From Verticillium longisporum (lineage: Eukaryota; Ascomycota; Sordariomycetes; Glomerellales; Plectosphaerellaceae), in contig JAETXT010000004.1 in the NCBI GenBank assembly GCA_019188255.1, positions 682,001 through 746,000 of the forward strand: DNA of 64,000 nucleotides. Reading direction: 5' to 3'. The position numbers were made by a program, and so were the translations under genes. The notes beneath the pieces are model-generated. The model did no database searches. It was given only the letters and a program-made list of their open reading frames with translations, and was not told the DNA's origin. This document shows, piece by piece, positions 16,004 to 37,610 of the stretch (position 1 is the first letter of the stretch; every line of letters begins with the position of its first letter).

Positions 16004-16738
16004 GGTGATGGTCGCAACGCGGGGTCGATACTCGTGCGCGTTGGCGGGGTGCTCGGAGGTCGTAAGCGACGAAAGTCGTGTCAATGCTGCCAGAGACTTG
16101 GTCGTTACTGGACGTCTGAGCAAAAAGGCCTGCTAGAGCTCGCTCCGAAAGCAGTCAGGACAGGAGGTACGGTGGACACGTCGCGGACTTTCAAGATCGC
16201 GGAGGAGAGGTCCGAATTTCTGGCCGCATTCGTGAGTCAACGGCAGGTGATGCGAAGTGGCAGGAACAACCCCGCGGCTGACTAAGGAGCTTTCGGTCAG
16301 GAGTCGATTACCCCGCCTTCACCGAGTTCTCGCAGTCAGAATGTTGGGAGCTATGATGTTGTGGATTGTTTGTTCGCCGAGAACAGAGTAAGGAATACAG
16401 CCTTTCTTCGAGCCAATCTAGAATGGACGCTTCTGTTATCATTTTTCGAGCTCGCAAGTTTGTCGGGCTTCGCATCGACGAATCCCGTCGAAGACCCTTT
16501 CGATCAGTCCTCAATCTGAAGCTTGCCAGCACAATCCTCGCCACACGCAACGCCATGACCTTCATTGTACAGCTAACTGTGAACAGAACGACTATCAGCG
16601 GCCTTTAATGTCGCCAATGTATGTTACGTCAAACGTGGCATGCTGTCGCCAATGCGGATGGCTGTCAAGCTCACGCCTCCATCAGCAAAATGAGACGCTG
16701 AGCTGCCATCTTCATCAACTCGGATGATTTTCCATGGC
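16004..16738. other. Intergenic between TrpRS start and the downstream gene's end
   Basis: 735 bases. 16004-16137 is open in frame with the TrpRS start and lacks an ATG. The rest shows no supported feature. Confidence 0.45.
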
Positions 16739-17994: not shown

Positions 17995-18239
17995 CTTGAT
18001 GATTGAATTCTGTAGATCTCGAATATTGACTGAATGCTGGAGACGAGAAGATGAATGTCTCGTAACCGAAGAAGAGAAGGTAAAATGTTGGTTTCCAAAA
18101 CAGCTCGAGCGAATGGTGATGTCATCTCAGCCTTCTACATCATCCACCCTCCGAGCGCGCGGGCCCGTTCCCATGGCAAACGCGTCCTTCGCGTCGCGTT
18201 GCTTTTTTTTTTCTTTCCTTTTCTGTTTTTCCGGCCCAG

Positions 18240-18665
18240 TCAGCCGTTGAGTCTCTCCGTGACATAGACCAAGACGCCGAGCGACGCGTTCATGAGCGGC
18301 AGGCGGAACTTTAGGCCGCTCTTGGCCCGGCCCCAGGCGCCGGCGCCGGTCCAGAAGAGGACGAGCCCGAGCGTCGGCAGGCTGCCGCGCGTCGACGGCC
18401 AGGCCAGCATGGCGGCGGTCAGGAGATACCAGGCGCCGACGTAGCGCATGTGCTTGGGAATGTCGTCTCTGAAGGGCACGACGGGGTAGAGTTTCGCTGC
18501 CGAGAGCTGCGTCTTCCGATAGGTTCGCGCGTGGAGGGTCGGGAGTGCGTCGCTCAATCGGGCCACGGCTGCGATGGTGAAGTGGAGAGAGAGGACGATG
18601 GCCGGGAGAGCGGCGAAAAGAGACAACATCGTGGATGGGTTGTGGATGGGAGGCCAGAGGGCCAT
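18240..18665 (-). CDS. Small four-helix membrane protein, DoxX-like
   Basis: Single exon of 141 aa from ATG 18665. Four hydrophobic segments are visible at about residues 12-33 (LFAALPAIVLSLHFTIAAVA), 75-92 (VGAWYLLTAAMLAW), 97-113 (TLGLVLFWTGAGAW) and 120-138. A second ATG at codon 13 (MLSLFAAL) might be used. The pattern of helices and short loops resembles DoxX/DUF4267-type membrane proteins, with no catalytic residues to name. It stops at TGA 18240, just beyond a T/C-rich tract at 18204-18235. The product is probably real but its function is unknown. Confidence 0.6.
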   Translation of the reverse strand: MALWPPIHNPSTMLSLFAALPAIVLSLHFTIAAVARLSDALPTLHARTYRKTQLSAAKLYPVVPFRDDIPKHMRYVGAWYLLTAAMLAWPSTRGSLPTLGLVLFWTGAGAWGRAKSGLKFRLPLMNASLGVLVYVTERLNG

Positions 18666-20223
18666 GGCCAGCGCTTCTGGTCGAAGGAATGGTCAGGAGG
18701 TCGGAGATGATGCTTATCTCTTGTCTTGTCTGGTCTGAGCGCGTAGGTGAACTTTGTCCTACGGTACGGTATTGCGTTACATGCCGACGTCATTGACGCG
18801 AACTCGGCAGCGATTGGTCGTGTCTCATTCACTACTGCCTTTTCGCGATGCTCGCAAACGACGCAGAACTCGGGAGCCGACGCGTCGGGATGTGACGCAT
18901 CGTTTTTTCGGTCTCTGGAGTTCTGCGCCATAATTACATGCCGTAGGGTTCGATCACAACGAGGCATCATGAAGAGGGACTTCCCTCATGTCAGAAGGCG
19001 ACGACTGTTCAATTGTCCAAAATGTCGGTGCAGAAACATCATGAACAAAACTGGATCGCTCGTTAATGACGTTCATCGGCAGGCTACCATCCATCATCTG
19101 ACATTGGCAAGCCCGACATGGTGCGATGCTCAAGAAACCCAAACCACGGCACCTGGTTGGTGGAGACAGGAAGGGTGCAATGCCTCAACAGGTCGAGAGA
19201 GGTCAGCTTCTCTCGACATCATCTCCGACGTTGCATCCGAAAAGACCAATGCTGTGAATCCCCCACTCGTATACCGCACAAACGTTTTCCATGGCTACCT
19301 ATGAACCCCGAAATGTCTTAGGGTGGTCGTGCGTCAAGATGGCCTTGACTGCCACATCTGCAAGATCCTTATGGACTGCTTCAAATGCTGTACTGAAGAG
19401 CCCTAGGAGAGTCAAGCTCGGCCTTATGAGCCAGCTTCTGCCCCCAAGGCGCAACAAATACAATGCTCTCCTCGAAATTTCCAGAGGCAGAGTGAGCCAA
19501 AAGGACATCTTTCTGCTGGGGAAAAGCCACTCAATTCGATCGTTATTGTGTTGATCCCGTATTTACATCGAAGAGGATGACGACGAGCCTATTTCACTGA
19601 CGAGAACATGCGACTCTTCAGAGAGAAGTCGGTCCCGGGCCATGCTGGCCTTGTCTTGTGAACTTGATCTGAAGTGGATCATTACCCATCTCTTAAAAGC
19701 TTGAATGGAGAAGTGCCAAGACTGCTCGGCAGCCGGGAGCCTCAGACGGGTGCGTCCAGCCTGGCTTGTCGATGTGGAAAGAAGTGTCTGGTCCCGGGCA
19801 AACAGTGCAACTCGATCGTATCTCTGGCACTGTCAATCCAAAGGTGGGTCGAGCGGTTCCACAGGGACGCGACCGTTGGCAACGGCATATGGTATGCGGC
19901 TGCTCTGTCTGATAACGGTCACCTATCGCCTTGCAAGCGGTCATCTTGAGATGTCGGCATGAGAGATGCTGGGATTGAAGGATGTATTCTCGATGTTTGG
20001 CTGGGTACCTGCATATATGTAGGCAGGTAGGTAGGTAGTCGTACGCATTTCCTCGTCATGGATGGGGCTTGTGAACGATAAAACATCTGCCGCAACACTC
20101 CTGTAGCCAAGGACGAACAATCAATGCAGTAGGTACTTTGTGTTCCTTAGGTACCTAGGTAGGTAAGTAGTCAAGATTAATGATACAGTGCTCCATCATC
20201 AAGCAAAAACACAAAAATATTAA
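18666..20223. other. Intergenic, TAGG microsatellite near the tRNA
   Basis: 1.56 kb without a supported protein gene. Short GGTA/GTAG repeats lie at 20020-20040 and 20148-20172 (TAGGTACCTAGGTAGGTA), a common low-complexity motif in such genomes. Confidence 0.5.
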
Positions 20224-20335
20224 CGACGCCTGCAGGATTCGAACCTGCGCGTGCGAACACAATGCCTAGTCTATCGAACGTCGGAGGACGCTCATCAATA
20301 GCAGGGCATCGCCTTAACCACTCGGCCAAAGCGCC
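20224..20335 (-). tRNA. tRNA-Ser (anticodon GCU) with intron
   Basis: Read on the minus strand, the 5' end GGCGCTT pairs with the 3' end (AGGCGTC, then discriminator G). The A box TGGCCGAGTGGTTAAGGCG and B box GGTTCGAATCC are canonical. The anticodon stem ATGCC/GGCAT frames loop CTGCTA-A, so the anticodon is GCT, reading AGC/AGU. An intron of about 31 nt follows position 37. A long variable arm (TGTG-TTCG-CAC type) supports a class II serine tRNA. The total of 112 bases fits a spliced nuclear tRNA transcribed by RNA polymerase III. Confidence 0.93.
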
Positions 20336-20775
20336 GTTGAGTGAGGGGCGTAGGTGTGCGGAGACATCATGACCCCGCACAAGGAGAGGTGGTACGTCAA
20401 CTGGCATCCGTCATGCCGGTGGTTCGCGGCAACTTCTCCATGGGCGGTATTGCAACAGCTGTGTAAGATTCCTTCGTAACTTATGGTATCCCATGAGGAT
20501 GGTTGAAAATGACGGAGGCGGGGGATGATGGCTTTACAAAAAGCTGCAAGTGAAGTAAGAAAATTTGTCTCAAGATCTGGTGCCAAGTCCAGGAATTACA
20601 GTGTGGACCAGTCTTCAAGATCACGTGCCACCAGCTGAGTCCCCACCTCTCACTGACTCAGCACCCGGACGCGGAGGTTCACGGCGGCTGTCGTCATACC
20701 ACCCCACTACAGCTTAACCCTCAACCACAGTCGTTACCATCGTGAGATTTACCCTCACCCCACCCTCCCTTCCCC
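20336..20775. promoter_or_regulatory. Upstream region of ribose-5-phosphate isomerase
   Basis: 440 bases between the tRNA and RKI1. A CACGTG-like core (ATCACGTGCC) lies at 20620-20629 and pyrimidine-rich leader sequence (CCCTCACCCCACCCTCCC) just before the first ATG. Confidence 0.35.
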
Positions 20776-21744
20776 ATGTTCCGCCTCGTGCGTCCATCTT
20801 TCTTCTGCCCTCAAGCAACAATTACCAACAAGATACCCCTTCCCTTCCTTCCCCGGCTTCACTTTGCTCCCGAAGCAGCCTCAACAGCAGCCCGCACCAT
20901 GTCCACCCTGTCCCCCGTCGAGTCCGCCAAAAAGGCCGCCGCCGCCCGCGCCGTGTCCGAACACCTGCAGCCCAGCCACCGCTACGTCGGCATCGGATCC
21001 GGTAGCACAGTCGTCTACGTCGTCGACGCCATCGCTGCCAAGGGCCCCTCGTTCTGGGGCGAGATGACCTTCTTCCCCACCGGCAGCCAGAGCAAGGGCC
21101 TCATCCGGGCCGCCGGCCTGCGCCTCTGCAACCTCGACGACAGGCCCCTGGAGAGCGGCAAGCCCGTGACGCTGGACGTCGCGTTCGACGGCGCCGACGA
21201 GGTCGACGCCGAGCTCAACTGCATCAAGGGCGGCGGCGCCTGTCTGCTGCAGGAGAAGCTCGTCGCCATCGCCGCCAAGAAGTTTGTCGTCGTCGCCGAC
21301 TACCGCAAGCTCTCGAAGAACCTGCTCACGCAGTGGAAGGCTATCCCCATTGAGGTCCTGCCCATGGCGGCGCCCGATGTCCTGAGCCAGCTCGTGGCGC
21401 TTGGCTCGACCGGGCCCCTTGTTCGCCCCGGTGTCCCTGGCAAGGCCGGCGAGGTCGTGACGGACAATGGCATGTGGATCATTGACGCGCCGTTTGCGCC
21501 GCTGAAGCTGCTGAGCGAGGGCGCCGGTGCGGAACGTGCCGCTGACGGCTCGTGGGGCGTCAAGGCGCTGGCGGACGAGATTGTCAAGATTCCTGGTGTT
21601 GTCGAGGTTGGCATCTTTTTTGGTCTCGACGGCAGCGAGGCGGCCAAGGTGGGCAAGTTTGGACTGGCCCAAAAGCCTGTGGCGGCATACTTCGGCATGG
21701 AAGATGGCAGTGTCAAGGTGACGAACGCGGCGGGGTCGGAGTAG
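20776..21744 (+). CDS. rki1: Ribose-5-phosphate isomerase A
   Basis: Intronless; 322 aa from ATG 20776 or 281 aa from ATG 20899. The enzyme interconverts ribose-5-phosphate and ribulose-5-phosphate in the non-oxidative pentose phosphate pathway. RpiA motifs are clear: YVGIGSGSTVVYVVDAI (phosphate loop), DVAFDGADEVD (catalytic Asp pair), KGGGACLLQEKLVA (catalytic Lys/Gly loop) and VVADYRKLSKNL. The second ATG has the stronger context (CACCATG) and MSTLSPVESAKK is the usual family start, so the shorter form is likely the main product. The 41 extra residues (MFRLVRPSFFCPQATITNK and on) are basic and look mitochondrial; see the findings. Confidence 0.93.
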   Translation: MFRLVRPSFFCPQATITNKIPLPFLPRLHFAPEAASTAARTMSTLSPVESAKKAAAARAVSEHLQPSHRYVGIGSGSTVVYVVDAIAAKGPSFWGEMTFFPTGSQSKGLIRAAGLRLCNLDDRPLESGKPVTLDVAFDGADEVDAELNCIKGGGACLLQEKLVAIAAKKFVVVADYRKLSKNLLTQWKAIPIEVLPMAAPDVLSQLVALGSTGPLVRPGVPGKAGEVVTDNGMWIIDAPFAPLKLLSEGAGAERAADGSWGVKALADEIVKIPGVVEVGIFFGLDGSEAAKVGKFGLAQKPVAAYFGMEDGSVKVTNAAGSE

Positions 21745-22242
21745 GCTTGCTTTAAAAGTTTCAAAATAATAGAGGTCGTGTGATGAGTGTCAAAGACTTC
21801 ATCAATGCATATTGTAGATCCGTGTCGTTTATGCTAGTTGCACGATGCGTGATTCTCTGTACTGTTGCCGTCATGAAGGCGTTGGTAGCCTTCATGAAAG
21901 CTGATATACATATTCTCTGTCAATTGAGATGAGACAGTATGCTTTTGACAGTTCCCTGACCGTGCTTATCATCTCCTCCATAAGGAAGGAACAAAACAAT
22001 CCGTGTCACTTTCGTTATTCAATAGCTGCAACATTCCCAGTCAAACAATATGCAAGTCCGTTCCTTCCAGTTCTCAATATAATACTGTTCTTAAACGTCG
22101 GCTGTCTGATCTATTCTTATTCTTGAATTCCCCAGTGCTCTGTTCTTCCTCTCTTTAACCTTTCTTCAGAAGGAACCTCATCGTCCGAAAGTCCGACTAC
22201 TACTTCATCTTCAACATAAGCAGTCCGATCTCAAGACCAAAG
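21745..22242. other. Intergenic, no gene seen
   Basis: 498 AT-rich bases between two same-strand genes. No repeat or ORF of note. Confidence 0.45.
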
Positions 22243-23731
22243 ATGAAAACCTCAACGTCCAAGGTCGCAGCCCTCGTCTGCTTCCTTCTCCTCAGCTCTG
22301 CAATGGCCTCAATGGCGGCTTGGTCTACAGACATGGGAGACCAGCTTGTCCTCCAGTCTCCCACTTCCCACCTTTTGTACCACAGCAGCTGCAACACCTC
22401 CACCGATCTCGTCTTCCCAGTCAACGACCCTTTCATCTTGGAGACCGAGTTTCCCCCCAAAGAACACGGCAGCCTGGCCGGCGTCGGCTGGTTCGACGCC
22501 GTCACAACATGGGTCCTTCCTCCAACGCAGCTCGTCTCTCGAGAGTATGACTGACTCTCTCTCTAGGCTTGTCTCTGGTATCAAGACTCCTCAAACAACC
22601 TCGTGTACGCTCGCTACGAGTGCAACGCCACCAGCGGCGCCTACGCGCTTCACAACTCAGAGATCATCTCGACAGCTCTTCCCGATAGCATTGCGCTCCA
22701 TAATCGTACGGCGCTCAGTGCCGTCCTCCTTGGCGCCGAGGAGGGCATTCGAGTCTACGCCCACGATGAGGAAAGAAGGATCCATGAACTTTCGTTCCAT
22801 AACCCAACGGGCTGGCTTTATGGTGGATCGGTGGCAGACCAGCCGGGAAACGGGCTTGCGCTGGCATCTGCTGCGTCGGCCGAAAAGGAGGTCACCGTCA
22901 TTGTGCCGGGCGAGCAAGGCATTCAAGTGCTCCATAAGGACATCAAAGACACTGTTTGGGACAGGTGTAAGTGTGAACGCAATCAACCCCTTAAATCACG
23001 CCGCTGACAGTGTCCATCAGCAACCACTTCGATATCTGGCGAGATGGCTTCATTCCCATCCAACAATCTCCACTCCCTAGCCCTCACAACCGACGAGGAA
23101 GGATCATCCTCCCTCTTCTACATCGGAACCGACGCAAGGCTCCATCACCTCCTCTCCCCACCCAACAGCCCAGAAACCTGGGTCCCACAGCCCACCCAGC
23201 CCCGCGACCTCTGGCCAAAGGCCCAAACCCCCTCCGTCCCCCTAACCATAACCTCCCGCCGCGGAGCTCGCGTCTTCACACTCTACTACCAGGCCTCCCC
23301 CACGGAGATCGCCTCCGCAACCTTCAACGGAGAAACCTGGTCCACGACCCTCCTCCCCCTCCTCCCGCCCCCCGGAGATAAGCCCCTTCCTAACCCCCGA
23401 TCCCACCACCCCGCGCACCGAGCCCCCGCAGCCCAGAGACGTCAAGGCTCCCCTCTCAAAACCAGCCCTCATAGCCCTGTGCACGATCCTGCCCGTCGTC
23501 GTCGTGCTAGCCTTCTGCGCAGCGTGCCTCTTCACACACCGCAGGCGCCAGGCAGCCGCGAGGCACGGCCCCCGCCGCGCGCCGTCGAGAACCAGACCGC
23601 GCTCGACGGATCTGGCGTTCCGACACGTCAGGCCGTACAGCGAGTTTGGCGAGCTGAGCTGGGAGGATGGCGTGAGCGAGGATACGACTACCGCCAGCCC
23701 GTGGCGGAGGAAGAGGGGGTGGACGTGTTGA
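22243..23731 (+). CDS. Lectin-like type I membrane protein, frame broken near 23370
   Basis: Likely exons 22243-22512, 22567-22966 and 23021-23731. A signal peptide starts it (KVAALVCFLLLSSAMASMAAW). The extracellular part has repeated blades: YQDSSNNLVYARYECN, GIRVYAHDEERRIHELSFHN, SSSLFYIGTDARLHHLLS and RGARVFTLYYQAS. These resemble the fungal fucose-lectin-like beta-propeller family. After WSTTLLPLLPPP at 23368-23373 (C6 run) the frame must shift one base to reach a Pro/Thr linker, a membrane helix (ALIALCTILPVVVVLAF) and a basic tail (HRRRQAAARHG) ending at TGA 23731. Without the shift the frame runs to 23775 with no helix. The first intron donor is uncertain (22501 is an alternative). 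The ligand is unknown. Confidence 0.6.
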
Positions 23732-24240
23732 TGAATCGGGCGCTCTACTCGGCAAGATTGAGGGTTCACCCATGAGGTCGGCACACGCATTGGGTCAGCT
23801 GACTTCATTCTGGGAGAGCAGTTTCGGGAATCTGTGGCTGCGAAATGTATGACAAGTTGTGAAGAACGAGACGTGGCTTCATCCTGCTTGTGAGGAATAT
23901 GGGCGGTTGGACCTCGACGTAAATTATTTGGCTAGTTAACAAACAGAATACATTGCGTAAAAAAGTCACAGGTCTATGGCTACTGCACTCGATGAAACCG
24001 GTGTACATGATATTCATTTGGTATCGAATTAACATCTATAGGACGTTTCAACCGACATATTGTCATCGTCAACACAAGGTATTATTTCTAGTCATTACGC
24101 AGAATAAGAGATGCAGACATGCTGCTCAAGCAACCAGCCACCAACGCCATCTATGCCACTATTTCCTTCACTCTCGGTCCCAGACCTGATCCTCCAGCTA
24201 TCCATTATCCATATCAAAGACTCCCCACAGACCGCAACGT
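23732..24240. other. Convergent 3' flanks
   Basis: 509 AT-rich bases between two convergent genes; nothing recognised. Confidence 0.45.
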
Positions 24241-26145
24241 CTAAGCCGCACCGCCAGCAGACAGTGTGGTAGTGTCGAGCTTCTTCCACCTGGACCCAAG
24301 ACTCGCCACAAAGGCCACACCCGCGCCGGCAATAACAAGCGCAAACGTCACACGAAGACCGTCCATGTAAGCCTCGATGACAAGCGGGACGACTTCTGTG
24401 GGGAAGGCGTTGCGGATCTCAGTCGCGCCAGTCAAGATAACTTGCTCTTGGGAGATCTGGGGAGCTGTATCGCGAAGGGTCTTGAGGATGGTTTGGAGGA
24501 AACCAGCCTGAGCACCGGCAACGTAGAAGGCACCGCCGATAATCTGGAAGACTGGTTGGTGTTAGCAGAGATGGCCATGTCGAAGCTGTCAGCGCCACAG
24601 GAGAAACTTACAGAGCAGAATGGCCGTCTTGGAGGCGAGGTCTTCGGGGGTCGAGGTTCCCTGGACGGCAATCATCGGAATCTGGAACGAGGCGCCCCAG
24701 GACAGGCCAGCGAGGGCCTGGTAGCCGATCCACTCGCCGCTGCCGCTACCAATGTCGAGCGTGTAAATCAGGCCAGCCGCCACGGTAGAGACGGCAGCGG
24801 ATACGACGAGGATGGGTGTGTAGTGCCCATACATGGTGATCGAGATGCCCGAACTAACGGTAGCGATGGTGACACCGATGATGAGAGGCAGATTGCGCAC
24901 ACCGGATTGCGTGGGGGATTGGTTGTCGACCGACTGGAAGTAGATGGGCAGATAGTAGATCAGGGTGAAGTAGGCGCCAGCGTAGAAGAACATGTAAATG
25001 CTGGAGATGTAAAGCGTGCGGTCTTTGATGAGGCGCGGGGCAATCATGGAGCGCTCGCCTTGGTACCATTGAAGTACACCAAACGCAATGGCCATGAGGA
25101 CGAAACCGACAATGAGGCCAATGACGACGGAAGAGTCCCAAGCATGTTCAACGCCGCCGTACTGGAAGGCGAGCAGGAAAGAGATGGTGGCAGCCATGAT
25201 GAGGGCAGTGCCAAGGGGATCCATCTGCAGAATCTTCTCCTTCAGAGGTGCCTCAACGGGAATGGCGTGAGGAGGTGTCTGGAACCAGAACAGAATGATG
25301 GCAGCAGAGACGGCACCCTAGTCAAGTCAGTCTGGGGAGTCGGAATGAGGTTCAGGGACTGGGGCAACGCACGATGGGCAGGTTGATGTAGAAGCACCAA
25401 CGCCAAGTGACGTGGTCGGAAAAGACGCCACCAACGATGGGGCCGATGACCGAGGCAATACCGTACGAAGCACCGATAGCACCAGTGTATGCGGGGCGTT
25501 TGGCCGGAGGAGCGGCGAATCCGATAATGGTGTAGGCTCCGGAACCGATACCTGCGGCACCAACACCGGCAATGGCACGGCCGACAATGAGAGCGATGGA
25601 GGTCGGGGCGACGGCACAGATAAGCGAACCCACTTCGAAGATGGCGATCGAGATGAGGAAGCTAATCTTCAGCGGGAAGTACTTGTACGCCTTGCCCCCT
25701 GAGAAAGAACCACTTATCAGCACGGTGATCTCAAGGTGGACCAGTCTCGGGAAGTCAGTCACTTACAGGTTGACTGGAAGGCGGCCACGGTCATGAAGAA
25801 GGCGGCGCCGTACCACGACACTTCGTCCAAGCGCTTAAATTCGTCGGTAATCTTAGGGATGGCTGTGCCGACGATGGTCATGTCGAGAGCAACAAGAAAG
25901 ATGCTAAGCATGAGGGCGACAAAGACGAAAGTCAAGCGCATGCCTGTAGGGTACTGGAGTTCTTCGGCCGGTGCGGCGTCCTCGACACCCTTGTCTGGCT
26001 GCGTCTGCGTCTGTGCCTCTTCATCGACGTCGGTGGTCGAGCCATACTCCTTCTTGGCCTCTTCATACGCCGATGGTGTCACGGAAGGGGACCTCTCGGG
26101 TTCCTTCTCAGGGTTGCCCCCTAGGTTACTGGCGGTCAGAGACAT
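24241..26145 (-). CDS. MFS drug:H+ antiporter, DHA2 (14-helix) type
   Basis: Exons 25767-26145, 25373-25698, 24612-25317 and 24241-24551 give 573 aa, introns 55-68 bp. The N-terminal ~65 residues are cytoplasmic and polar. The helices that follow carry family marks: [17 protein letters not shown] (helix 1), [38 protein letters not shown], and motif [20 protein letters not shown], characteristic of antiporters. [11 protein letters not shown] is also typical. The length and helix number fit DHA2 exporters such as TOXA-type toxin or drug pumps. No secondary-metabolite synthase lies next to it, so the substrate is open. The 2.7 kb upstream of its ATG has no other gene. Confidence 0.88.
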
Positions 26146-28894
26146 GACGAGGAAGCCCCTTGGTGTTTGTTGATGGGTTGGGTAAGGTCAAGTCAGGGCT
26201 GATGTGGTGTCGTGCTACCGTGATAAGGTTGGTAGTGAGCAAGGACCCGCGATGTAAGTGTGTGAGAGGCTTGAAGGAAGGGATGGGCCGTGTAAGATGG
26301 CTTCGGGGCGTGCCTTATGTAGCACACTGCCTTTCCACTGCGATGAAGAAAGAATCTTACCAAGACGACCATGACGGTCTGCCTCACATCATCTCTGTAT
26401 ACTTGCTGCCTCAGTTCCGCAAGGGCAGGGGGTCCGCCTGGTCTGTTTCTGCCCATGGCTGCTCTGTCCCTCCTGCGCAGCAAGTTCTCGCCCGGGCTTA
26501 GAACCGAGACCGAGAGTCTCGAGGTGACCAATGCACGTGTTCGGAGACATCTTTGGTAATGCCGGCTCCACGGAGATTCGGGCGGACAGGGATAGAGAGG
26601 GTGATTCATCTGGCCGGGTAGGGGTGGTGGTACATGTGTGCCATGCTTTGCCTGGAAATGGCCAGACCAGGCGACCTGTGTCCAGCGGCAGAATTGCGCA
26701 CGACGACGAGGTACATTGTTGGGTACGTACCGTACCTCACAGCTCATACGCGGGCAGCAAGCGGCTGGGCACCAACATGCCTATTGGTAATCGGTGGGCG
26801 GGGTGTCAGGATGTCATGGTAGCCGGTAAGCCCTACGAGAAAAGGTGAGAATCCCTCCATTGTTGAGCTGCAGCACGGTGGCCCAATCCGGGCATCGATG
26901 TGGTGAGATGATCCGCTGGTGGGTTTTGCCCGTTGTCCAAGGGGGGCTGCCTTGTGGATGGCGAGATGAGATGAGCAATCCAGAGTCCTCGTGCTTTGCG
27001 GGCCTCAAGTCGGCCTGCGCCTTGGCTACCTAGCGCCCTGTCTGCGGACAAAGTGTGTGGCCCATGCCCGCGTCCGTTGCCCTGTGGCCAGTTCCATTGG
27101 CCTTGACTTGGGAGGGAGGCTTGGGAGGGTGGTGGAGCTTGCAGATGCTGGCTTTGTGGATGCTGGCTTTGCGGACTTTGGATGGCGTTAGCGCGCTCGA
27201 AGGGTACCGCCCGTGGAGTTATGGGTTTTCTCCGTGGGTGGGTTTCTTCCGACAATGGGTTTCTACCGATGGATGGGATTTGGCCCTTTTTGAGGGTGTG
27301 TGTGTTGGTACAGCTGAGCTGCCGGGCTTAACCAAACTCCAGGCATCATTCGTGGTCTCGGGCGCGTCTAGCAGCCCGTGTCTCTCATCAGTTCGCAACT
27401 TGGTCGCTGTGACGTAGGCGACCGTCTGCAGAGCTGCCGACGATGATGTTTTGTTCAAAGAGCCAAGGCGACGAGGTGTTGAGCTCATCGGAGACATTTG
27501 CACAGCTCAAACGGAGACTTACGGAGAATGGATCCGCTGTATCCTGCCTTTTCACTGCATCGCATCATCGCACCATCGCACCCCAACGCTGAGGCCAACC
27601 GCCAAGATAGCATGTGAAGGGGTACACTATGGCGGTTGACAGACGACCTCGGAAGTAGGCAGAAAGAACAATGGAATGCGAAGTGAAGATGCAAGCGCAA
27701 GCCCCCGAATCGCCGCGGAGTTTGGGCGCAGAGGAAATTTGTCAGATGGGCGCGATCAACCAAGACAAAAGTACCTCGCCCAACGCCAGACGCCAAACGC
27801 CCCCCAGCACCCAGAATTCAGAGGAACAAAAGCTCGGCGGTGGAGATGATGCTACGGACTACTGTACCGTAGCATCAGCGCGACTGAAACATGGATTGCC
27901 AAAAGTAACGGCCGCCTCGCATGAGCGCCAATAGGCATCGGGTGTGCGCGTCAGATTAGCAGCATGCCAGAATGGAGAGCGGCGAACAGCCATTCACGTC
28001 GTCGCCGTCGCACGACGGCCGTGGCATCAGCAGATTCGTCCGTTCGCGTCGGTCGTTGCTGTCCGTCAGCATACTAGCGGTGGGAAAGCTGATCTGCGTC
28101 GAGACAGAAACCTTATCTGCTGGGATCTGTCGCGCCAGCGCGCCGGCGGGACTGCTTCTGACCTGGGGCTTGTTGCTGGCGCTTTTGAGATTAGGCGGAC
28201 AGGGAGCAGGAATCCGAATCCGCGCAAGGGCCGTATTCCCAGACGAAAGGGTGTCGAGATTGGTCTGACGTGATCATTTATGAGCGAGCAAGCTAGCAAA
28301 TGATTAGCGACGTGGGTTCGGGAGGTCCGGGTCCCTCACTCCTGGTCAGATATGAACCGCCGGGTTCTTGACCTCCATCTTCCTAAGATTCAGGCTGTCC
28401 GTCGTCCGGCTGGGGTCACCAAAAACACGAGGATGGATGCAATCCCGAGCTGGAAGAAGTCGATAGAATGGCGAACAAGCCGTGTCTCTCTGCATTGCCT
28501 GAAGGAGCGAGCCCTGAGACGGCTGCCTACGAAAATGTTGATTATTGATCAAATTCATGTGGAGCGCACTGTACCTACACATGTGTGGCCGATGCGCATC
28601 CAATGATAGATTGCAGGGACGAGATCAATACACTGTGTAAGCCTGCACTTTCCTTGCCAACATCATCATAGCCACTGCCTGCCATCAATGACAACACCAC
28701 CTTCCTTGAATAGGTACCTACCTAAGGTAGGTGGTTCCTGCTACCTTTTCCTCGTAGACCCGGCTTTGTCATCATGATTCCTACTACGAGCTGACACAGC
28801 CTTGCAAACTGCATCTTGGATGACTCCTCTCCCCCTTGTTCTATACAGCTTTCTACCACTGCACGATAACACCGGGAACATTCTAACCGGATGC
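26146..28894. other. Long gene-free interval between MFS pump and Mo oxidoreductase
   Basis: 2.75 kb. A short direct repeat GATGCTGGCTTTG occurs twice at about 27144-27172, and a TAGGTACCTACC-type motif lies at 28711-28733. No domain-bearing ORF, RNA gene or terminal repeats were found. The left end must hold the MFS promoter; the right end is the 3' flank of the oxidoreductase. Confidence 0.45.
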
Positions 28895-31800
28895 TCAAAT
28901 GCCAGCACCTCCGCCCTCCTCGTCCTCGACACCCTTCCACGCAGGCACTAGCAACGTCTGCGGCGCCCTCACCTTGATCTGCTGGTTGACCCAGGCTTCC
29001 ATCCTTGACAAGCTCCGCTTTCCCTCCACTACCGCATCGTAGAACCCTTGATACCACATGGCCTGGCTGACTGGCACCAGCGCCGTCAAGCCACCATCGA
29101 TGTGAGCCAGATAGACATGAAGCGCCTGTAGTGTCTCCATCACCTCGTACGGACTGCGCTGCGAGTCTCGACTCGGGAACAGTGCGTCTCTCAGCTTCTC
29201 CGCTTTCTTGCTGCCGCGCTGGCTGTCCTCGCCCAGTTCGCGGATATACGTCTCGAATCGACGCCGCATACCCTCGGCAATGCGGCGGAGGACGCGCAGC
29301 CCTGCTTCGATTTCAAGATCGTGCACGAGATCAGGAATCAGGTCTCCATAGATCTCGGAGAGGTGTTTAATGCTTTCGTAGGCTTCACCAAGCCATTCTT
29401 CCAGTTGTCGCTTGCGCATGGAGTATTCAGCAGCCATGGAGGTATGAGCCGACTTGTTTGATGCTTCGACCTCCGCTGCAGACTGAGGCTCGGGAACGTT
29501 AATTTTTCCAGTGTCAGTCACCTTTTCGATACGAACGGCACCAGCTTTAAAAGTCGGCTGTTTCGAGATAGGGTCCCATCGCTCTGCGTCCGTTAGCGCT
29601 GTTCAGAGCATGAACACACCAGGTCACGTCTTACCAACTGTGAGCTCGTTCGCAGCCCGCGCCCGTCCGTCTTTGCCATCCCAGTATCCAAAATGAAATG
29701 GCAGGAACACCTGTCCGACCTTGGTACCGCCGACCCTAGCCCGTACCTCGACTGCACCCCTCCGTGACCTGACGATTACCATATCTCCCGTCTGAATATC
29801 CAGCTTTTCAGCATCTTCAGAGGCGATGCGCACTTCAGGCTCGGGACAAGCCTTCTGCAGCGACTTGGCGCGACCAGTCTTTGTGCGCGTGTGGAAGTGG
29901 AACACGTTCCTCCCGGTTGACAATCGGAAGGGGTATGTTTCGTCTGTACCCTCCATCGGCTCGAAATAGTGGCACGACTTGAGAATGGCGCGCCCAGCAG
30001 GATTCATACCGGAATACGCTTCCTTCGAGTACGGCGCGCCAGTCTCCAAGTCGTGTCCGAAACTCTCGCAGACGTCAAGGTCAGTGAAAAACTTGCCGTC
30101 GGTAAAGAGACGTTCCGTTCCAGTAGGATTCGCCTCGTTACACGGCCACTGAAGTCCAGAGCCGCCGCTAAGCTTCTCATAAGACAGGCCGCTGTAATCG
30201 CAAGGTCGACCCTTTGACACACTTTTCCACGCCTCGAACACATCCGCCGCGTCTTTGAACGGAAAGAGGCTCTGTCCGTCTTTATCCTGGAAGCCCATTC
30301 TCCTGCCGTAATCCATGAAGATATCAAGATCACTCTTGGCCTCCCCGGGCGGCTCAACAGCCTTGTGGGAGAGATGCACCGTCCGGTCAACGTTTGTAAA
30401 ACATCCCTTCTTTTCGCCCCATTGCGCCGCCGGCAGAACGACATCGGCGACCGCAGCTGTTTCCGTCAGGTATATGTCCTGACACACAACCAAAAGGCTC
30501 GAACTGGTTAAGATCTTCCTGACGCGGGGCAGATTTGGCAGGCTGACCAGGGGATTCGTTCCCGAGATCCACAACATCCTAACCGAGCCATCCTCCATAA
30601 AGTTCAACAGGTTCTGCACATGGGTCGGTTCGTTCCAGTGGGGGACCTGGATATGTTCGATGTTCCACAGCCTTGCGAGTTCCTCCATGTGGTCTGGGTT
30701 GAGGTGGTTGCGAAACCCGGGGAATTCGCCGTCGCAGCCTGCCTCGCGGTTGTTTTGTGCAGTCGGCTGGCCGTTCATTTGCAAGACGCCGCTACCGGGT
30801 TTCCCGATCAGCCCACGGAGGAGATTGATGTTGTTGATCTGGCAGGCGCTTGCCGTGGCTTGATTGGATTGATAGACTCCCTGCAATGCCGTCGAAAGTA
30901 GGCTCTTGGTTTTTCCGAGAATCTCGGCGGCTTTCTGTAGGTCCTTGACAGGAACACCGGTGATCCTTTCGACGATTTCAGGTGTGTAGTCCTTGACCGT
31001 CTGTTCGAGATCCTTGAAACCGACAACGTGCTTTCCGAGCCAGTCTTGGTTGTACCACTTGTTCTTGAACATCAAATGCTGAATTCCGTTGAGAAGAGCC
31101 ATATTCGTCCCGATCCTGGGTGACAAGTGAACCGTGGCTCTCCTCGCCGTCTCCGACAGCCGCGGGTCGACGACAATGAGCTGTGGGGGGTCTGGCCCTT
31201 CAAGCCTGTCTAGCACCCTGCTCCACAGCACCGTCTGCGTCGCAGCCATATTGTGGCCGACGAAGAAAAGACAGTCTGTGTAGTCGATATCAGTATACGA
31301 CCCAGGCTGCCCATCTGACCCGAAGGACTCTCGCATCGACGCAGCTGCCGTAGCTGTGCACAGACGCGTGTTGCCGTCCCTGCTTCTCCATTAGTTGTCA
31401 TCCACACATGGGACAGGGTTCGCTTTACATGTGAAGCGTATGCAGTCCTGCCTTTCCTACCAAAGCCAGGGCATAGTATTCCTCGAGGAACAGCTGCCCG
31501 CTCGTATAGAAGGCTATACTGTGACTGGTGAGTCTCTCCATCAGCGATTTGGAGCGCTCGACAATGAGGCCCATGGCCTCGTCCCACGTGGCGCGTTCCA
31601 GCTTTCCGTTCCGCCGAATCAGGGGGTGCTGCAAGCGATCAGGGCTGTTGATGCCCTTCCACCTGGTGACAAGGTCAGCTGCTGCACCCATACATAGACT
31701 TTGAGCACGCTCACCCGTGAAGCCCCTTGGGCCCGAGCCTCCCCTTGTTCACCCGATCCGACGCCCTGCCCCGAACGCCGACGACCTTGCCGTCCTTGAC

Positions 31801-31998
31801 GCCAATGTCGAGACCGCACCCATTGCTGCAGAGGACGCACGCGCTCTGCACCCACTTCTCCGGCTCCTCGTCGTAGGCGTGGTCGACGCGAGTCGGCCAC
31901 TCGTGCTTGTACGGCGTCCGGGGGCCGTAAATGTCCTCTATGCAGTTCCGGCCGCAGTGGGCCGGCGGTTCGCCGAAGTTTCGTGAGCCTGATGGCAT
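28895..31998 (-). CDS. Bacterial-type molybdopterin oxidoreductase (DMSO-reductase superfamily, NasC/NarB/FdhF-like)
   Basis: Exons 31715-31998, 31429-31662, 29635-31379 and 28895-29583 (introns 49-52 bp) give 983 aa. The N-terminal Fe-S module has Cys54-x2-Cys57-x3-Cys61 (CVLCSNGCGLDIG). Gly89 stands where the fourth Cys is usual (NKGRLGPKGLHGW). Next come the molybdopterin domain (WKGINSPDRLQHPLIR; DGNTRLCTATAAASM with Cys180 as probable Mo ligand; LLRGLIGKPGSGV; AAVADVVLPAAQWGEKKGCF) and the cofactor-binding barrel (DMVIVRSRRGAVEVRA; VFLPFHFGYWDG; AANELT). A helical ~140-aa extension ends it. Known relatives bind two molybdopterin guanine dinucleotides and reduce nitrate or oxidise formate. 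There is no flavin or haem domain, so an external electron partner is needed. Substrate unknown; probably of bacterial origin. Confidence 0.85.
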
Positions 31999-32314
31999 GG
32001 TTGATTCCGGTTCCAGTTCGATGCGACTCTGAGGGACGAATGGCTGAGAGTGAATACTGAGGGCTTGGACACACAAATTGTTTGAGCAATAACGCGACTG
32101 CTATTGGAAAGCAGCGACGCTTCGGTGCCACGGACTTATGATGCGACACTGACGAGCTGGTGCGTCATGGTCCGGGCCGGTTTTGTGGGGCCAATTGAAG
32201 CTTCTCCGGAACGCTCGATTGAAGGTCTTGAGGGCTGACGTGTAGCCGTCTGGGATCACGGTGTTGTTGAAAGGGAATTCTTGTCCCGCCGGAATAATAT
32301 CAGCAGCTTTCATA
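31999..32314. promoter_or_regulatory. Divergent promoter between Mo oxidoreductase and mobA
   Basis: 316 bases separate the two start codons, so the genes can share control. Two CCAAT boxes are visible, one inverted at 32103-32107 (ATTGG) and one direct at 32191-32195. No clear HGATAR nitrogen-regulator site was seen. Co-regulation is inference. Confidence 0.45.
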
Positions 32315-33052
32315 ATGACGGCCAGCCCGGCCCAGACCAGTCGGTCCATCAAAGCAGTGATCCTCGCCGGAGGCAAGTCATCGAGACTCGGTCGGCCAAA
32401 ACATCTGCTCCAAACGCCACAACTGACGCCATTGTATCATCATCAGCTTCAACTCATCCGATCTGTCCTGCCAAGTTGCCAGATATTCATCTCGCTCGCC
32501 CAGGAGTCGCAGCAAGACGAGATGCTCTCCAGCCTGGAAGTCGTCAACAGGAAAGACGCATCTTTGTCGAACAGATGTGGTGCTCAAGACAATTCTATAT
32601 TCATTCTCATGGATCAGTCACCCAATGGGACCGATGTCTCTTCTGGCCCTGCCTCTGGGCTCGTTGCGGCTCATGCATACGATCCAGAGGCTTCCTGGCT
32701 AGTGGTGGCCTGCGACTATCCACTCGTCCCGGCAGAAGCTCTTCAGAAGCTGCTGCATGGTCCCGATCATCCTGTCAAGTGCTTCAAATCCTCTGAAGGC
32801 TTCTGTGAGCCGCTGCTCGGGTTATGGTCCCCGGAAGCGTTGCGCACGCTCACACAAAGAGTTACAGAAAGGAGACTGAGCCCTTCGGCAGTAGTCAAAG
32901 AGGTTGGGGGTCACATGTTGGAAGTGCCACAGGGTTTTGACTGTTGGGTTGCGAATGTCAACACAGCGGAAGAATGGGCGCAAGTCCTGCAAAGGTGGGA
33001 CGACATTGGTTTATATGAAGTACAGATCTCCGGGTTCGACAAGAGTAATTGA
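32315..33052 (+). CDS. mobA: MobA-type molybdenum cofactor guanylyltransferase
   Basis: Intronless, 245 aa from ATG 32315; an in-frame upstream stretch has no ATG. MobA transfers GMP from GTP to Mo-molybdopterin, forming the MGD cofactor used by DMSO-reductase-family enzymes. The N-terminus has the nucleotidyltransferase signature AVILAGGKSSRLGRPK (residues 14-29). WLVVACDYPLV matches the MobA acidic metal-binding block (usually ACDMPFL). CEPLLGLWSPEAL and a late CWVANVNTAEEW (usual N-x-N-T-P/A-x-D/E) complete the fold. It is divergent from the oxidoreductase and nearly touches the 3' end of moeA (26 bases). Related sugar or CTP transferases are possible, but the context favours MobA. Eukaryotes normally lack this enzyme. 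Confidence 0.82.
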   Translation: MTASPAQTSRSIKAVILAGGKSSRLGRPKHLLQTPQLTPLYHHQLQLIRSVLPSCQIFISLAQESQQDEMLSSLEVVNRKDASLSNRCGAQDNSIFILMDQSPNGTDVSSGPASGLVAAHAYDPEASWLVVACDYPLVPAEALQKLLHGPDHPVKCFKSSEGFCEPLLGLWSPEALRTLTQRVTERRLSPSAVVKEVGGHMLEVPQGFDCWVANVNTAEEWAQVLQRWDDIGLYEVQISGFDKSN

Positions 33053-33078
33053 TTACACGGACGATCTGACAACCACTA

Positions 33079-34409
33079 TCATGTACTTAGGATGTCGAAC
33101 TCTTTGAAAGGATAACATGCAACATCAAGCTCCTCTTCATCCAATATTTTCCCTTCATTAAGCTGTATCCAGCAATTAGCATCGAGATAGGGTGCAACTT
33201 TAGCTGGGCTTTGCTCCTTGCTTATTTCCACGAGGAAGCCCCCATCAGGCATCTGTTTTATCTTCCCATGCTTGAATAATGTATGAGAACCCGTGCCGTC
33301 TGGCATTTTGCCGAGATGACCTTGCTCTAGCCGTCGAGGGAGAAGTTTTGCGATTATCGGCTTTTCGGGGGGCTTGCCCAGGAGGCATTTGATAAAAGGT
33401 CGCACAAGGAACTGGAACGTTGCCGCAGCTGCCCCTGGATTCCGGGCAGGCCGAAGATAGTCACGCTGTGAGCTCCTCGCGAAGGGATTGTTCCGAATAA
33501 CACCGGATGACCAGGTCGTATCCGTAGCCCATGAAACTCGATGGCGGCGCCGAGGCGGCGCAATGACGGTAATAGGAAGTCGAATTTCCCAACTGATACG
33601 CCGCCGGTTGTGATCAAAAGGTCGAAGTCCTCACTTTCGGCCGCTCGCTGAAGTTGTGTTGCCATTTCACGGGCATCGTCCGGAAATGTTCCGAGAAACG
33701 ACACGTGTGCCCCAGCCTCCGCCAAAGCCGCGGTGAGGTACGGGCCGTTGGCATCTGGAACGTGGCCAGGGCCTGTAGTCGCGATCTCTTTTCCAGAAGA
33801 CCAGAGTCCGACGCGAGGTTTCTTCCAGACCCAAATCTCCGTCACTCCTATTGAAGCTAAGACCAAGATGTGCTGTGGTTGGACCGTCATCCCAGGCGAA
33901 AGAAGTGCAGCGCCATCCTTGATATCGTCACCTGCAACACGTCTGTGTTCCCCGGCGGCGACCGGTCTTGTGAGCTTGATCATCCTACCGCGGGCATTTT
34001 TGGCGTCCGTCACGGTTGACGTTTCTTCGATCTTGATGCACGCGTCCATTTGATAGCCTGAGACAGGTTTGGTTGGAAAGATTCCGCCAGTCATAATCTC
34101 AAGGCACGGTAGAGTCGAAGAATCAATGTGAGACTCGTGAAGTCTTGGGTCATCTCCTGCAGCTATCGTGCCGCAGACCTCCAAAACCAGCGGGTGGTCG
34201 ATTGAGGCATTCCTTGTGACACTTGATGGCACCACATATCCATCCATAGCCGATGTGTCGTACTTTGGTGTGGCAACAAGGCTGTCAAGAGTCTTGGCTA
34301 CAACATTGCCGACGGCTTCCTGGAGGGGAATACATTGCGTTCGCAAGTTTTCTGCTGTCAGTGCGGCTACTTCATTGACCCTGCCTAGTGCTACTTCGTA
34401 GGAGACCAT
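33079..34409 (-). CDS. moeA: Stand-alone MoeA-type molybdopterin molybdotransferase, one frameshift
   Basis: MoeA inserts molybdate into (adenylylated) molybdopterin. The first frame, ATG 34409 onward, has MVSYEVALGRV, YDTSAMDGYVV (S-A-M-D-G-Y signature), IMTGGIFP (usual MTGAxxP), VGLWSSGKEI (usual STGDEL), LLITTGGVSVGKFDF and GLRIRPGHPVLFG. At 33440/33441 the text goes from FGLPG to NPGAAAATFQFLVRPF only by adding one base (CCCGGAATCC). The second frame then runs to the stop at 33079 with MoeA domain IV sequence. The intact product would be about 443 aa. Fungi normally carry MoeA fused to MogA (CnxE/gephyrin type), so this is an extra, bacterial-style copy. The break may be an assembly error or recent inactivation. 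Confidence 0.8.
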
Positions 34410-34694
34410 GATGGATGATACGAAAGGGTCGCATTAGGAAAGCTGAATGTGGCTCGACTCACAATATGGCGATCCGTGTTCCGCTCCGTCATGTAGTCAT
34501 GGCTTTTTTGGCGATTCTTCCTCAGCAGATTTTGTCTCAATCGTTAGGTATCGAATCCATTGCGTGACGTCAATATTCGCTCACACGATACTGATGAGCA
34601 ACTCCACCTTTCACGAACAGGCAGGCTCGGTATGCCTTCGATAGACCTGTTAGTCATGTATCCATGGAATTGTTCGATCCACCCGATTCCTCCT
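34410..34694. promoter_or_regulatory. Upstream region of moeA
   Basis: About 285 bases between the moeA ATG and the inverted-repeat element. No motif is clear enough to name. Confidence 0.3.
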
Positions 34695-34978
34695 GGCAAG
34701 CGGGTTGCAAAAAAAATGAGACGTACTGAATGCTTCACCCCAGTCCCTCTACCTAGAATAACTGCACAACACTACTACGAGACACCTACAAGATCTAGAA
34801 TTATAGTGACTATTGAGTTTATAGATCAGTATAATGTACACTATTTTAAAGAAAGGCTTTTCGCCTAGACTGAAGCTCTGGAGTCGTTATAGAAATGTAT
34901 AGCTGAATAGCTGGGTAGTAGGAATGGTTATGGGGGAGGGATCTGGTACGTCTCATTTTTTTTGCAACCCGCTTGCCT
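34695..34978. mobile_element. MITE-like element with 32-bp perfect inverted ends
   Basis: A 32-base arm at 34695-34726 (starts GGCAAGCGGGTTGC, then A8, then TGAGACGTAC) is repeated exactly in inverse orientation at 34947-34978. The 220 bases between are AT-rich and non-coding. This is the form of a non-autonomous DNA transposon. Target-site duplication is not obvious. It lies 285 bases upstream of moeA. Confidence 0.65.
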
Positions 34979-35089
34979 GGTCTCCTAGGGAAACGAAAGA
35001 ACAAGTACCTAGTATTCTGCGTTGTACGCAGTAACCAGGCTGCCAAGACACAGCTGAACTTTGATTGTCCGTGATACGCTAACCAAAGC

Positions 35090-35750: not shown

Positions 35751-37610
35751 ACGTAATCCACAAGCGAGTGGTTCACCCATGCGAGTGGTTCACTTCACCC
35801 CGACCCGACAAACATTCCGAGGAAAACCTCAACCCAAACGCCGTAAATCAATTAAAATCACTCCTCCTCGTCTTTTGCAGACGATGAGATAGCTACCTGA
35901 CAAGTTCTCGCGTTGTGGCCGGTCTTCCCGCATACGCTACAGCATCGTTTCTTCGGCTGGGACCACGACGCGGGACCCGGGTTCTGCAGCGTTTCCTCTT
36001 TTATCTGGATATCTACTTCCTTCTGAGCAATCTTGTCCTGTCCCTCGCCTACAGCCATGCTTCCTCCTTCCCGGAGACGTAGCTTTTTGGCCCTCCGGCG
36101 TCGGCTTAGTGTAGCATTTTCCTCTCGAAGGATCATAACCTCTGACTTCAAAAGAGCGATCTGGTGCATAACACCCCGCGTCCCCTTCGCAAGATAGTCA
36201 ACAGCATCTAAAATTGACGTTGGGGAGCTTCCCTGGTGGCGTGAGATTCGCCCTTTGATGAAGTCAGTCTGGGAACCTGCCTCGAGCAGGTTAGTGGGCG
36301 TCTTAGAGACCCAAGAATCACGCTCCCCGTGGGACGTCCCCGGAGGCGTCGTCGTCCTCAACCTCACATCCAGCTTTGACAGGACTGTTTCCGGGTTATG
36401 GGGGACAAGCCCCGCTCCTCGAAAGCCTCCCTGGATGTTTTTTCTGTCATTGCTTGCTGAAATGCAGCCGAAAACGCCGGGAAGAAGTCCTCTTTGCTGA
36501 TGTGCGTTGTACCCGCCCTCATCCTATCCTCGATTTGCCGACCGTATGCTTTCTTTAGTGGGCCAAAACACCCAACATCGAGAGGCTGGAGTAGATGTGA
36601 CGAATGAGGAGGCATACAGAGTGTGATGATGTTGTTCTCCTTGCAGTAGAGTTCGAAGTCGACCGAGTGGTGACTTTCGTGGCCATCCAGGATCAGTAGG
36701 CGATAACCGCCCGAAGTACGGGACTTTGTATGCCTGTCAAAATGCCGAATCCATTCCAGACCAATATCATTCGTCGTCCAGCCGTTTGGAGATGTTGCGA
36801 TTCTCCAGTCGCGAGAAATCGCGTCGTCCTGGTACCAGCTCGAGAGGTGGTACTTGCCCGAAACCACGATGAACGGCGGGACGGAGAAACCCAACGCGCC
36901 AACGCCCTGGATCACCGTAACCCATTCCCGGTTGCCTGGCTGCCTCATCTTCACATTGGACCGTCTTTCCGAACTGGTCACGACCATTCCGTTGGCGATA
37001 ACGCCCATCTGGAAGCCGGTCTCGTCAAAGTTGTACATGTCAGCCTCTTGGATGCCGTACTTGGCGATCATGTTATGCACGAGGCGGAACCACGCGTTTA
37101 TCGCGTCCGGATCTTCGCATTGGGCCCTCTTGTAGTCGTACTTGCGAAAGAAACGCGTCCGGAGCTCTGGTTGCCGTTTGACGAAGTTTGCGGCCCAGTT
37201 CTTCCCGACGCGTGGCGCGTCACGGTCGGCAAGCAGGCGATTCGCCATATCTCCGACCTCACCCAACCGGGGAGGGTAAGATCGCGCATCTAGGTCAAGG
37301 ATATATTCGACAATAGTTTTCTCTTCTAGTACTGTTAATTTGGCAGAATTGGGCGGGCTTTCGCGTCGGGAGGGTTTGCCCTTCTGGCGTCGGAGGAGCG
37401 TCGTTAAGGGGACGGTGTAGATCCTCGCAGCACTCCGGGCGCTTAGGTTCGGGTCATTGTCCATAGCTTGGATAGCAAGGAATAATTGACCTTCTTTTGA
37501 AAGAGTCTCCATCGCGGGCGGAGGTGGAATCTGTAGAATTCAGGTGTAGGTCGTGGGCCCGGGCGAAGTGAACCACTCGCTTGGGTGAACCACTCGCTTG
37601 TGGATTACGT
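35751..37610 (-). mobile_element. Fot/pogo (Tc1-mariner superfamily) DNA transposon, 1860 bp
   Basis: Both ends share a 46-base inverted terminal repeat starting ACGTAATCCACAAGCG, with one mismatch. Each arm contains the unit GCGAGTGGTTCAC twice. The element is flanked by TA on both sides (35749-35750 and 37611-37612), the target duplication of this superfamily. It encodes a DDE transposase on the minus strand. Its normal base composition contrasts with the RIP-like DNA around it, so it inserted later. Confidence 0.9.
35858..37512 (-). pseudogene. Fot/pogo transposase with CCHC knuckle, frameshifted
   Basis: ATG 37512 opens a frame with an N-terminal helix-turn-helix (LSARSAARIYTVPLTTLLRR), a CENP-B-type DNA-binding part (GKNWAANFVKRQPELRTRF) and a DDE domain: YNFDETGFQMG, LLILDGHESHHS, PPHSSHLLQPLDVGCFGPLK. 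Near 36400-36413 the frame shifts: after EERG the text HNPETVLSKLDVRLRTTTPP continues one base over. The rest holds a coiled coil (LLKSEVMILREENATL) and a CCHC zinc knuckle (CCSVCGKTGHNARTCQ), ending at 35858. The family length is about 540-550 aa. With the frameshift, the coiled coil and knuckle are lost, so it is probably inactive unless the break is an assembly error. Confidence 0.8.

Follow-up and report, generated by a model that had tools for sequence, protein, structure and literature searches.

A three-gene locus of Verticillium longisporum as one copy of a probable fungal gene cluster for a bis-molybdopterin guanine dinucleotide enzyme

Does a fungus possess the genes for making and using bis-molybdopterin guanine dinucleotide (bis-MGD), a molybdenum (Mo) cofactor that reviews do not assign to eukaryotes? 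The question is raised by three adjacent genes in a stretch of 64,000 nucleotides of the Verticillium longisporum genome (C11:682001-746000 of an assembly of 72.0 Mb in 16 contigs), which is called the window here. An earlier reading of the sequence alone had placed an oxidoreductase of the dimethyl sulfoxide (DMSO) reductase family, a MobA-type protein and a stand-alone MoeA at 28,895-34,409, and all three were recovered there. In the excerpts consulted of the published surveys, the DMSO reductase family is described as exclusive to prokaryotes, eukaryotes having xanthine oxidase (XO) and sulfite oxidase (SO) enzymes only (PMC10609526), only the SO, XO and MOSC families are counted in a survey with 250 eukaryotes (PMC6147048), and the dinucleotide cofactor is spoken of for bacteria (PMC11434336). 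As far as these excerpts go, neither the enzyme family nor the dinucleotide cofactor that belongs to it is held to occur in eukaryotes. The gene set fit for making and using bis-MGD that the sequence-only reading had claimed for this eukaryote was nevertheless present. Judged from its sequences, the locus is probably a copy of a gene cluster that is conserved in fungi and serves a bis-MGD molybdoenzyme; this statement concerns the cofactor and the enzyme family.

The oxidoreductase gene (28895..31998, minus strand) encodes 983 amino acids in four exons (31998-31715, 31662-31429, 31379-29635 and 29583-28895). It is 97% identical to the V. longisporum protein BN1708_006324 (P0001), on which the scoring with family models was performed. 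Intron 1 (31663..31714, 52 nt, GT..AG) was placed by reading frame and homology to P0001; introns 2 (31380..31428, 49 nt) and 3 (29584..29634, 51 nt), on the same strand, also have GT and AG ends. The domains of the DMSO reductase (bis-MGD) family, Molybdop_Fe4S4, Molybdopterin and Molydop_binding (PF01568), all scored above the Pfam cut-off, both in the window exons and in P0001. When P0001 was aligned with NapA of Desulfovibrio (DGNPRLCM) and with FdhF (DHCARLCH), Cys180 (codon 31358..31360, minus strand, within DGNTRLCT) fell in line with the ligand Cys of both, and this residue is the predicted Mo ligand. The MobA-like molybdenum cofactor guanylyltransferase gene (32315..33052, plus strand, one exon, 245 amino acids) is divergent from the oxidoreductase gene. 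The stand-alone MoeA gene (33079..34409, minus strand) has the domains MoeA_N and MoCF_biosynth.

The distribution of the three proteins in fungi was examined by protein searches. For the oxidoreductase, 7,999 candidates were scored and the best 120 of at least 7,741 hits were used, among which the rows with an organism name were fungi. They comprised Sordariomycetes (Colletotrichum, Fusarium, Trichoderma, Pyricularia, Chaetomiaceae), Eurotiomycetes (Aspergillus, Penicillium), Dothideomycetes, Saitoella, Basidiomycota (Filobasidium, Naganishia, Crassisporium, Rhodotorula) and the chytrid Rhizophlyctis. The names under which databases list these proteins include 'nitrate reductase', 'periplasmic nitrate reductase' and '4Fe-4S Mo/W bis-MGD-type domain-containing protein'. 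The organism-labelled rows were Ascomycota both among the 74 MobA hits (Colletotrichum, Monosporascus, Fusarium, Cladorrhinum, Aspergillus), the weakest of which look bacterial, and among the best 120 of 7,844 hits for the stand-alone MoeA. Linkage was tested with the 120 oxidoreductase, 74 MobA and 120 MoeA rows, contigs of equal size being taken as the same and shifted sizes serving as control. Contigs in common numbered 24 for oxidoreductase and MoeA, 13 for MobA and MoeA, three for oxidoreductase and MobA and two for all three genes, compared with 0-1 in the shifted control. Seven of the 24 oxidoreductase-MoeA contigs were shorter than 65 kb; several contigs were chromosome-sized, where sharing does not amount to adjacency. 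Adjacent or next-but-one locus tags were found in Corynascus, Thermocarpiscus, Fusarium, Monosporascus and Helicocarpus, and the neighbouring tags were BN1708_006323/006324, VTI28DRAFT_6390/6392, VTK56DRAFT_6061/6062, FIESC28_10028/10029, ACLX1H_008926/008927, FOQG_10084/10085, ACHAPU_002321/002322, DL766_006346/006348 and AJ79_03241/03243. The sequence-only reading had suggested a search for co-occurrence and synteny of the trio; linkage of its members, as contigs in common and neighbouring locus tags, was thereby observed in several Ascomycota.

The ancestry of the oxidoreductase was analysed with a genome scan, in which at least 595 stretches and at least 574 relatives were matched and the best 80 loci were used. 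These loci were bacterial except for one archaeal-labelled assembly and showed 48-62% identity; a long stop-free stretch was obtained from 66 of them. A quick tree was calculated from 95 rows (26 organism-labelled fungi and the window, 15 unlabelled proteins, 49 of the 66 bacterial rows and four outgroups), and a careful mixture-model tree from 54 rows (16 organism-labelled fungi and the window, seven unlabelled, 28 bacterial and two outgroup rows). The fungi, together with some unlabelled rows, formed one clade in both trees, with a Shimodaira-Hasegawa-like approximate likelihood ratio (SH-aLRT) support of 99 in the quick tree and support values of 100/99 in the careful one. Within this clade, the careful tree had the chytrid and one unlabelled row branching first (83/93), followed by the Basidiomycota (81/87) and by the Ascomycota with Saitoella at their base, the latter weakly supported (85/30); the first forks were unresolved in the quick tree. 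The unlabelled protein P0109 branched as the sister of this fungal clade (87/66); the closest bacterial rows belonged to Planctomycetota and Myxococcota (93/91). Rooted on NasA-like and formate dehydrogenase (FDH)-like rows, the fungal clade was nested among bacteria; the outgroup branch was long, and the root is therefore less sure than the fungal clade itself. The simplest reading of these trees would be one old acquisition with later vertical descent and loss. In the quick tree Paecilomyces was placed among Sordariomycetes and Plenodomus with Microdochium, and these odd placements hint at transfers between fungi in some cases.

A private acquisition by this fungus, as originally supposed, was not borne out, the oxidoreductase belonging to an old fungal clade of Ascomycota, Basidiomycota and one chytrid. 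The supposed transfer from bacteria held for the oxidoreductase alone, on account of the nesting of the fungal clade; the donor of MoeA was not placed, and the MobA tree was weak. Membership in a long-established eukaryotic family had been named as evidence against the idea, and it applied in part: the clade is old in fungi, and the family is unrecognised in the excerpts of the reviews examined.

The class of the enzyme was judged from its active site, its Fe-S site and its family scores. The Fe-S motif of the window protein (CVLCSNGCGLD...GRLGPKG, 31723..31839, minus strand) contains three Cys, with Gly in place of the fourth. The pattern Cys-Cys-Cys-Gly was present in 84 of the 120 listed proteins, the remainder being truncated, gapped or odd gene models. 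In the fourth column of these 120 proteins, Gly occurred 96 times, Leu twice and a gap 22 times, and Cys was not found; two proteins had a Cys one residue further on. Among 66 bacterial relatives the column held Gly in 65, Asp in one and Cys in none; 50 showed Cys-Cys-Cys-Gly, and the other 16, all Actinomycetota, had Ser/Thr-His-Asp-Gly/Asp. In these 16 members, which are without the three Cys (L052, L061, L065, L069, L071, L072, L074, L078, L080, L083, L085, L089, L093, L096, L097 and L098), the Fe-S cluster seems from the residues to have been lost altogether. All four outgroup rows retained four Cys. The Mo-ligand Cys was followed by Thr in 114 of the 120 listed proteins (six gapped) and in all 66 bacterial rows, for which this motif was partly selected, since they had been found with peptide patterns including DGNTRLCT; in the outgroups it was followed by Met (three NasA-like rows) or His (one FDH-like row).

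None of the curated family cut-offs was reached by P0001, which scored highest with Fdh-alpha TIGR01591 (521.6 bits, cut-off 666.25), ahead of NasC (422.9, cut-off 1100), Halo NasA (355.6, cut-off 1000) and NapA (327.7, cut-off 930.55). By sequence and fold, HDCR FdhF and Desulfovibrio NapA were the closest PDB entries. Formate dehydrogenase was rejected: the enzyme shares its branch with FDH-H and HDCR FdhF (PDB 1AA6, 7QV7), its best PDB sequence match, but it misses the TIGR01591 cut-off and has no Cys/selenocysteine-His pair, and no match to the FdhD sulfurtransferase was found in the genome at E <= 0.01 (six frames, exon by exon), which also counts against this class. Arsenite oxidase lacks the fourth Cys as well and carries a [3Fe-4S] cluster. 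By analogy, a [3Fe-4S] cluster is likely in the fungal oxidoreductase, although AioA is distant in sequence (131.7 bits for TIGR02693, cut-off 359.05).

Of the other explanations, the one that survives best makes the oxidoreductase a Nap/Nas-type nitrate reductase, in keeping with many of the database names; it is possible but unlikely. It is favoured by Desulfovibrio NapA as the best fold match, by the stretch DGN[TP]RLC at the Mo ligand, which is common to both enzymes, and by genes for HPP and SLAC1 membrane proteins that adjoin the oxidoreductase gene in some bacterial relatives, these families being permeable to nitrite or nitrate. However, the scores are far below the NasC, Halo NasA and NapA cut-offs, and compared with NapA of Desulfovibrio desulfuricans (PDB 2NAP, 2JIO, 2V45) the fungal enzyme has Thr instead of Met after the ligand Cys, Gly for the fourth Cys of the [4Fe-4S] motif and an extra C-terminal domain, and it is eukaryotic and probably cytosolic. 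The genome also contains genes of the sulfite oxidase family, to which the ordinary eukaryotic nitrate reductase belongs, and a link to denitrification was not apparent, as NirK gave three weak matches and none over the cut-off in the genome. Nitrate is a doubtful candidate for the substrate. From the Fe-S site, the ligand neighbour, the cut-offs and the FdhD result, the oxidoreductase looks like a bis-MGD enzyme of the Nap/Fdh branch without the defining features of either nitrate reductases or formate dehydrogenases. An AlphaFold model of the whole enzyme, with a predicted local distance difference test (pLDDT) score of 60.7 (15 sequences), was of middling quality and too poor for active-site geometry.

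The last ~160 amino acids of the oxidoreductase form an extra helical domain (28955..29434, minus strand) with a predicted ferritin-like helical-bundle fold, which in many bacteria is encoded by a separate small gene. The domain of the window protein had no Pfam match, DUF892 included; in a set of 45 such domains, DUF892 was matched by five (best E-value 0.0056) and DUF2383 by six (best 8.4e-05). Glu was absent from the invariant and nearly invariant columns of the 45 sequences, in which the domain differs from ferritin-like E. coli YciF (PDB 2GS4), bacterioferritin and Dps, and a ferritin-type di-iron site therefore looks absent. At the 80 bacterial loci the neighbours that recurred most formed a small-subunit cluster (40 loci), an HPP cluster (11, not all adjacent), a SLAC1 cluster (7) and a transporter-like cluster (5); from each of the first three, one or two members were covered by the Pfam scan. 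A further cluster (nine loci) was discarded as an artefact, the oxidoreductase gene read backwards. No conserved electron-transfer gene stood out across the 80 loci, where many open reading frames were mechanical. Genes of the HPP cluster lay downstream of the oxidoreductase in L023, L028, L029, L042, L044, L047 and L054, and those of the SLAC1 cluster in L032, L037, L039, L045, L046 and L050, one member of each being named by Pfam. An HPP transporter near the fungal cluster was rejected, the HPP genes of the genome being on C13 and C15.

The MoeA of the locus could also be a duplicate of the fungal CnxE and not bacterial in origin, and the MoeA tree, in which no bacterial donor was placed, would allow this. 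The protein shares MoeA_N and MoCF_biosynth with CnxE/gephyrin and bacterial MoeA, but both the window copy and the open second copy are not fused to MogA, and the two proteins scanned had no match to PF03454. In the tree, the second copy grouped with 13 fungal stand-alone proteins in a long-stemmed clade (100/100), apart from the two CnxE copies of this genome, which were the CnxE rows included. A duplication of CnxE is accordingly unlikely. As a separate observation, the Monosporascus database protein P0027 (1241 amino acids) combines oxidoreductase and MoeA domains, being either a merged gene model or a true fusion.

Verticillium longisporum is an allodiploid, and families that are single-copy in most fungi were found paired in this assembly (NuoG on C12 and C13; CnxE, the MoeA-MogA fusion, on C3 and C14). 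The bis-MGD cluster is present twice as well, both times on C11. At C11:3.10-3.14 Mb lies the second copy, which is roughly 92% identical, aligns piecewise at 85-94% identity and is colinear over window positions 13306-33052. Compared with window positions 13306-64000, this copy (L007-L010) is rearranged at the cluster edge: its MoeA is reversed with respect to MobA, and from window position 50608 on the sequence is inverted against the remainder. Among the matches listed, the closest organism-labelled database proteins to the oxidoreductase and MoeA were those of V. longisporum.

Several observations weigh against the reading as a bis-MGD cluster. The window MoeA is broken by a single base near 33441, its second copy being open (460 codons), and the oxidoreductase, open in the window, has one single-base frame break in the second copy. 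For MobA, the ratio of nonsynonymous to synonymous substitution rates (dN/dS) between the two copies was 0.45 (245 codons), and the protein stayed under the cut-off of the MobA equivalog TIGR02665 (51.9 of 151.85 bits). Among the organism-labelled matches listed (74 for MobA in all, the best 120 for MoeA), in searches that need shared words, there was no MobA or stand-alone MoeA from the Basidiomycota or the chytrid that have the oxidoreductase, and in one Penicillium the oxidoreductase (N7451_012123) and MoeA (N7451_012413) are not adjacent.

The two breaks and the MobA ratio could mean that the cluster is decaying and non-functional in this fungus, surviving only in others. This is improbable: every gene type retains at least one open copy, so that each broken gene has an open partner in the genome, and the V. 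longisporum BN1708 records contain a full-length oxidoreductase and MoeA. The oxidoreductase had a dN/dS of 0.10 between the copies (982 codons), and evidently its sequence is under purifying selection. For MoeA the ratio was 0.26 upstream of the break (320 codons) and, in the three frames tried past it, 0.44 (115 codons, no stop), 1.02 and 1.81. One-base indels are also a usual error of long-read assemblies; both breaks may be real or assembly errors.

The low equivalog score and the weak MobA tree, in which the fungal rows were not one group, two rows (L157, L165) were junk and the value is that of a hint, would suit a MobA-like protein acting on another nucleotide or substrate, with an oxidoreductase that uses bis-molybdopterin without a nucleotide. 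But the protein scored 75.3 bits with the NTP_transf_3 domain PF12804 (cut-off 27), it has the loop LAGG..R.G..K, and MobA-type NCBIfam models (up to 71.7 bits) outranked the MocA model (24.4). The LAGG loop was present in all 19 aligned rows long enough to show that part, and Asp134 and Asn216, conserved as in E. coli MobA, were invariant in the 25 aligned of the 74 hits (two probably bacterial). The equivalog cut-off is strict, being passed by three of ten bacterial genomes searched and one of 14 control genomes. With the 13 contigs common to MobA and MoeA and the dinucleotide-binding domain PF01568 of the oxidoreductase, another nucleotide or substrate is improbable. From E. coli MobA (PDB 1E5K, 1FR9) the protein is divergent (PDB match E 3e-6). 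For a MobB partner the genome gave two sub-cut-off matches only.

Contamination of the assembly by bacterial DNA, suggested by the bacterial type of the proteins, can practically be dismissed, as the sequence-only reading had expected, because of the three short GT..AG introns of the oxidoreductase, an ordinary eukaryotic set of flanking genes (DEAD-box rRNA helicase, pentatricopeptide repeat (PPR) and aldehyde dehydrogenase), the syntenic second copy and matching proteins in other V. longisporum records. The same reading had described a transposon-rich tract beside the cluster, which was overstated: there is one Tc5/pogo-type DDE_1 transposase (36364-37539) and one inverted-repeat element, followed by ordinary genes. 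This element (34692..34980, strand unassigned), directly upstream of MoeA, lies between inverted repeats of 49 nt, which are 86% complementary and separated by 191 nt, looks like a small non-autonomous transposon and is probably merely a neighbour of the cluster.

For the probable bis-MGD cluster the following pathway is proposed. Molybdopterin would be supplied by the common eukaryotic pathway, and Mo would be inserted by CnxE or, in this branch, by the dedicated stand-alone MoeA. The MobA-like protein would then add guanosine monophosphate (GMP) from guanosine triphosphate (GTP) to yield bis-MGD, which would be inserted into a soluble, probably cytosolic oxidoreductase, where Cys180 would hold the Mo. 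The enzyme may perform oxygen-atom transfer, most likely by reducing a small oxyanion or an oxidised compound, and its C-terminal ferritin-fold domain may act as a scaffold or partner-docking module.

No publication on a fungal bis-MGD enzyme or a fungal MobA was found in those parts of the open-access literature that were searched. Excerpts of PMC5863371, PMC13233505, PMC11898892, PMC8703953 and PMC12345182 contained nothing relevant. The sequences are already in databases; the literature searched appears to recognise neither the bis-MGD conclusion nor the conservation of the trio as a unit in Ascomycota. It is conceivable, and put forward tentatively, that since before the split of chytrids, Basidiomycota and Ascomycota fungi have kept a complete bis-MGD branch with its own Mo insertase and guanylyltransferase. 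This branch would serve an uncharacterised enzyme class with a three-Cys Fe-S site (no Cys in some Actinobacteria), a Cys-Thr active site, a ferritin-fold partner domain and a substrate new for eukaryotic molybdoenzymes. The fungal gene set contradicts the published rule on eukaryotic Mo, and the rule may be wrong. If so, a molybdoenzyme family would be added to the eukaryotes, many fungal proteins named 'nitrate reductase' would gain a testable identity, and a bacterial clade of uncharacterised enzymes, whose Fe-S site is odd, would be opened to study.

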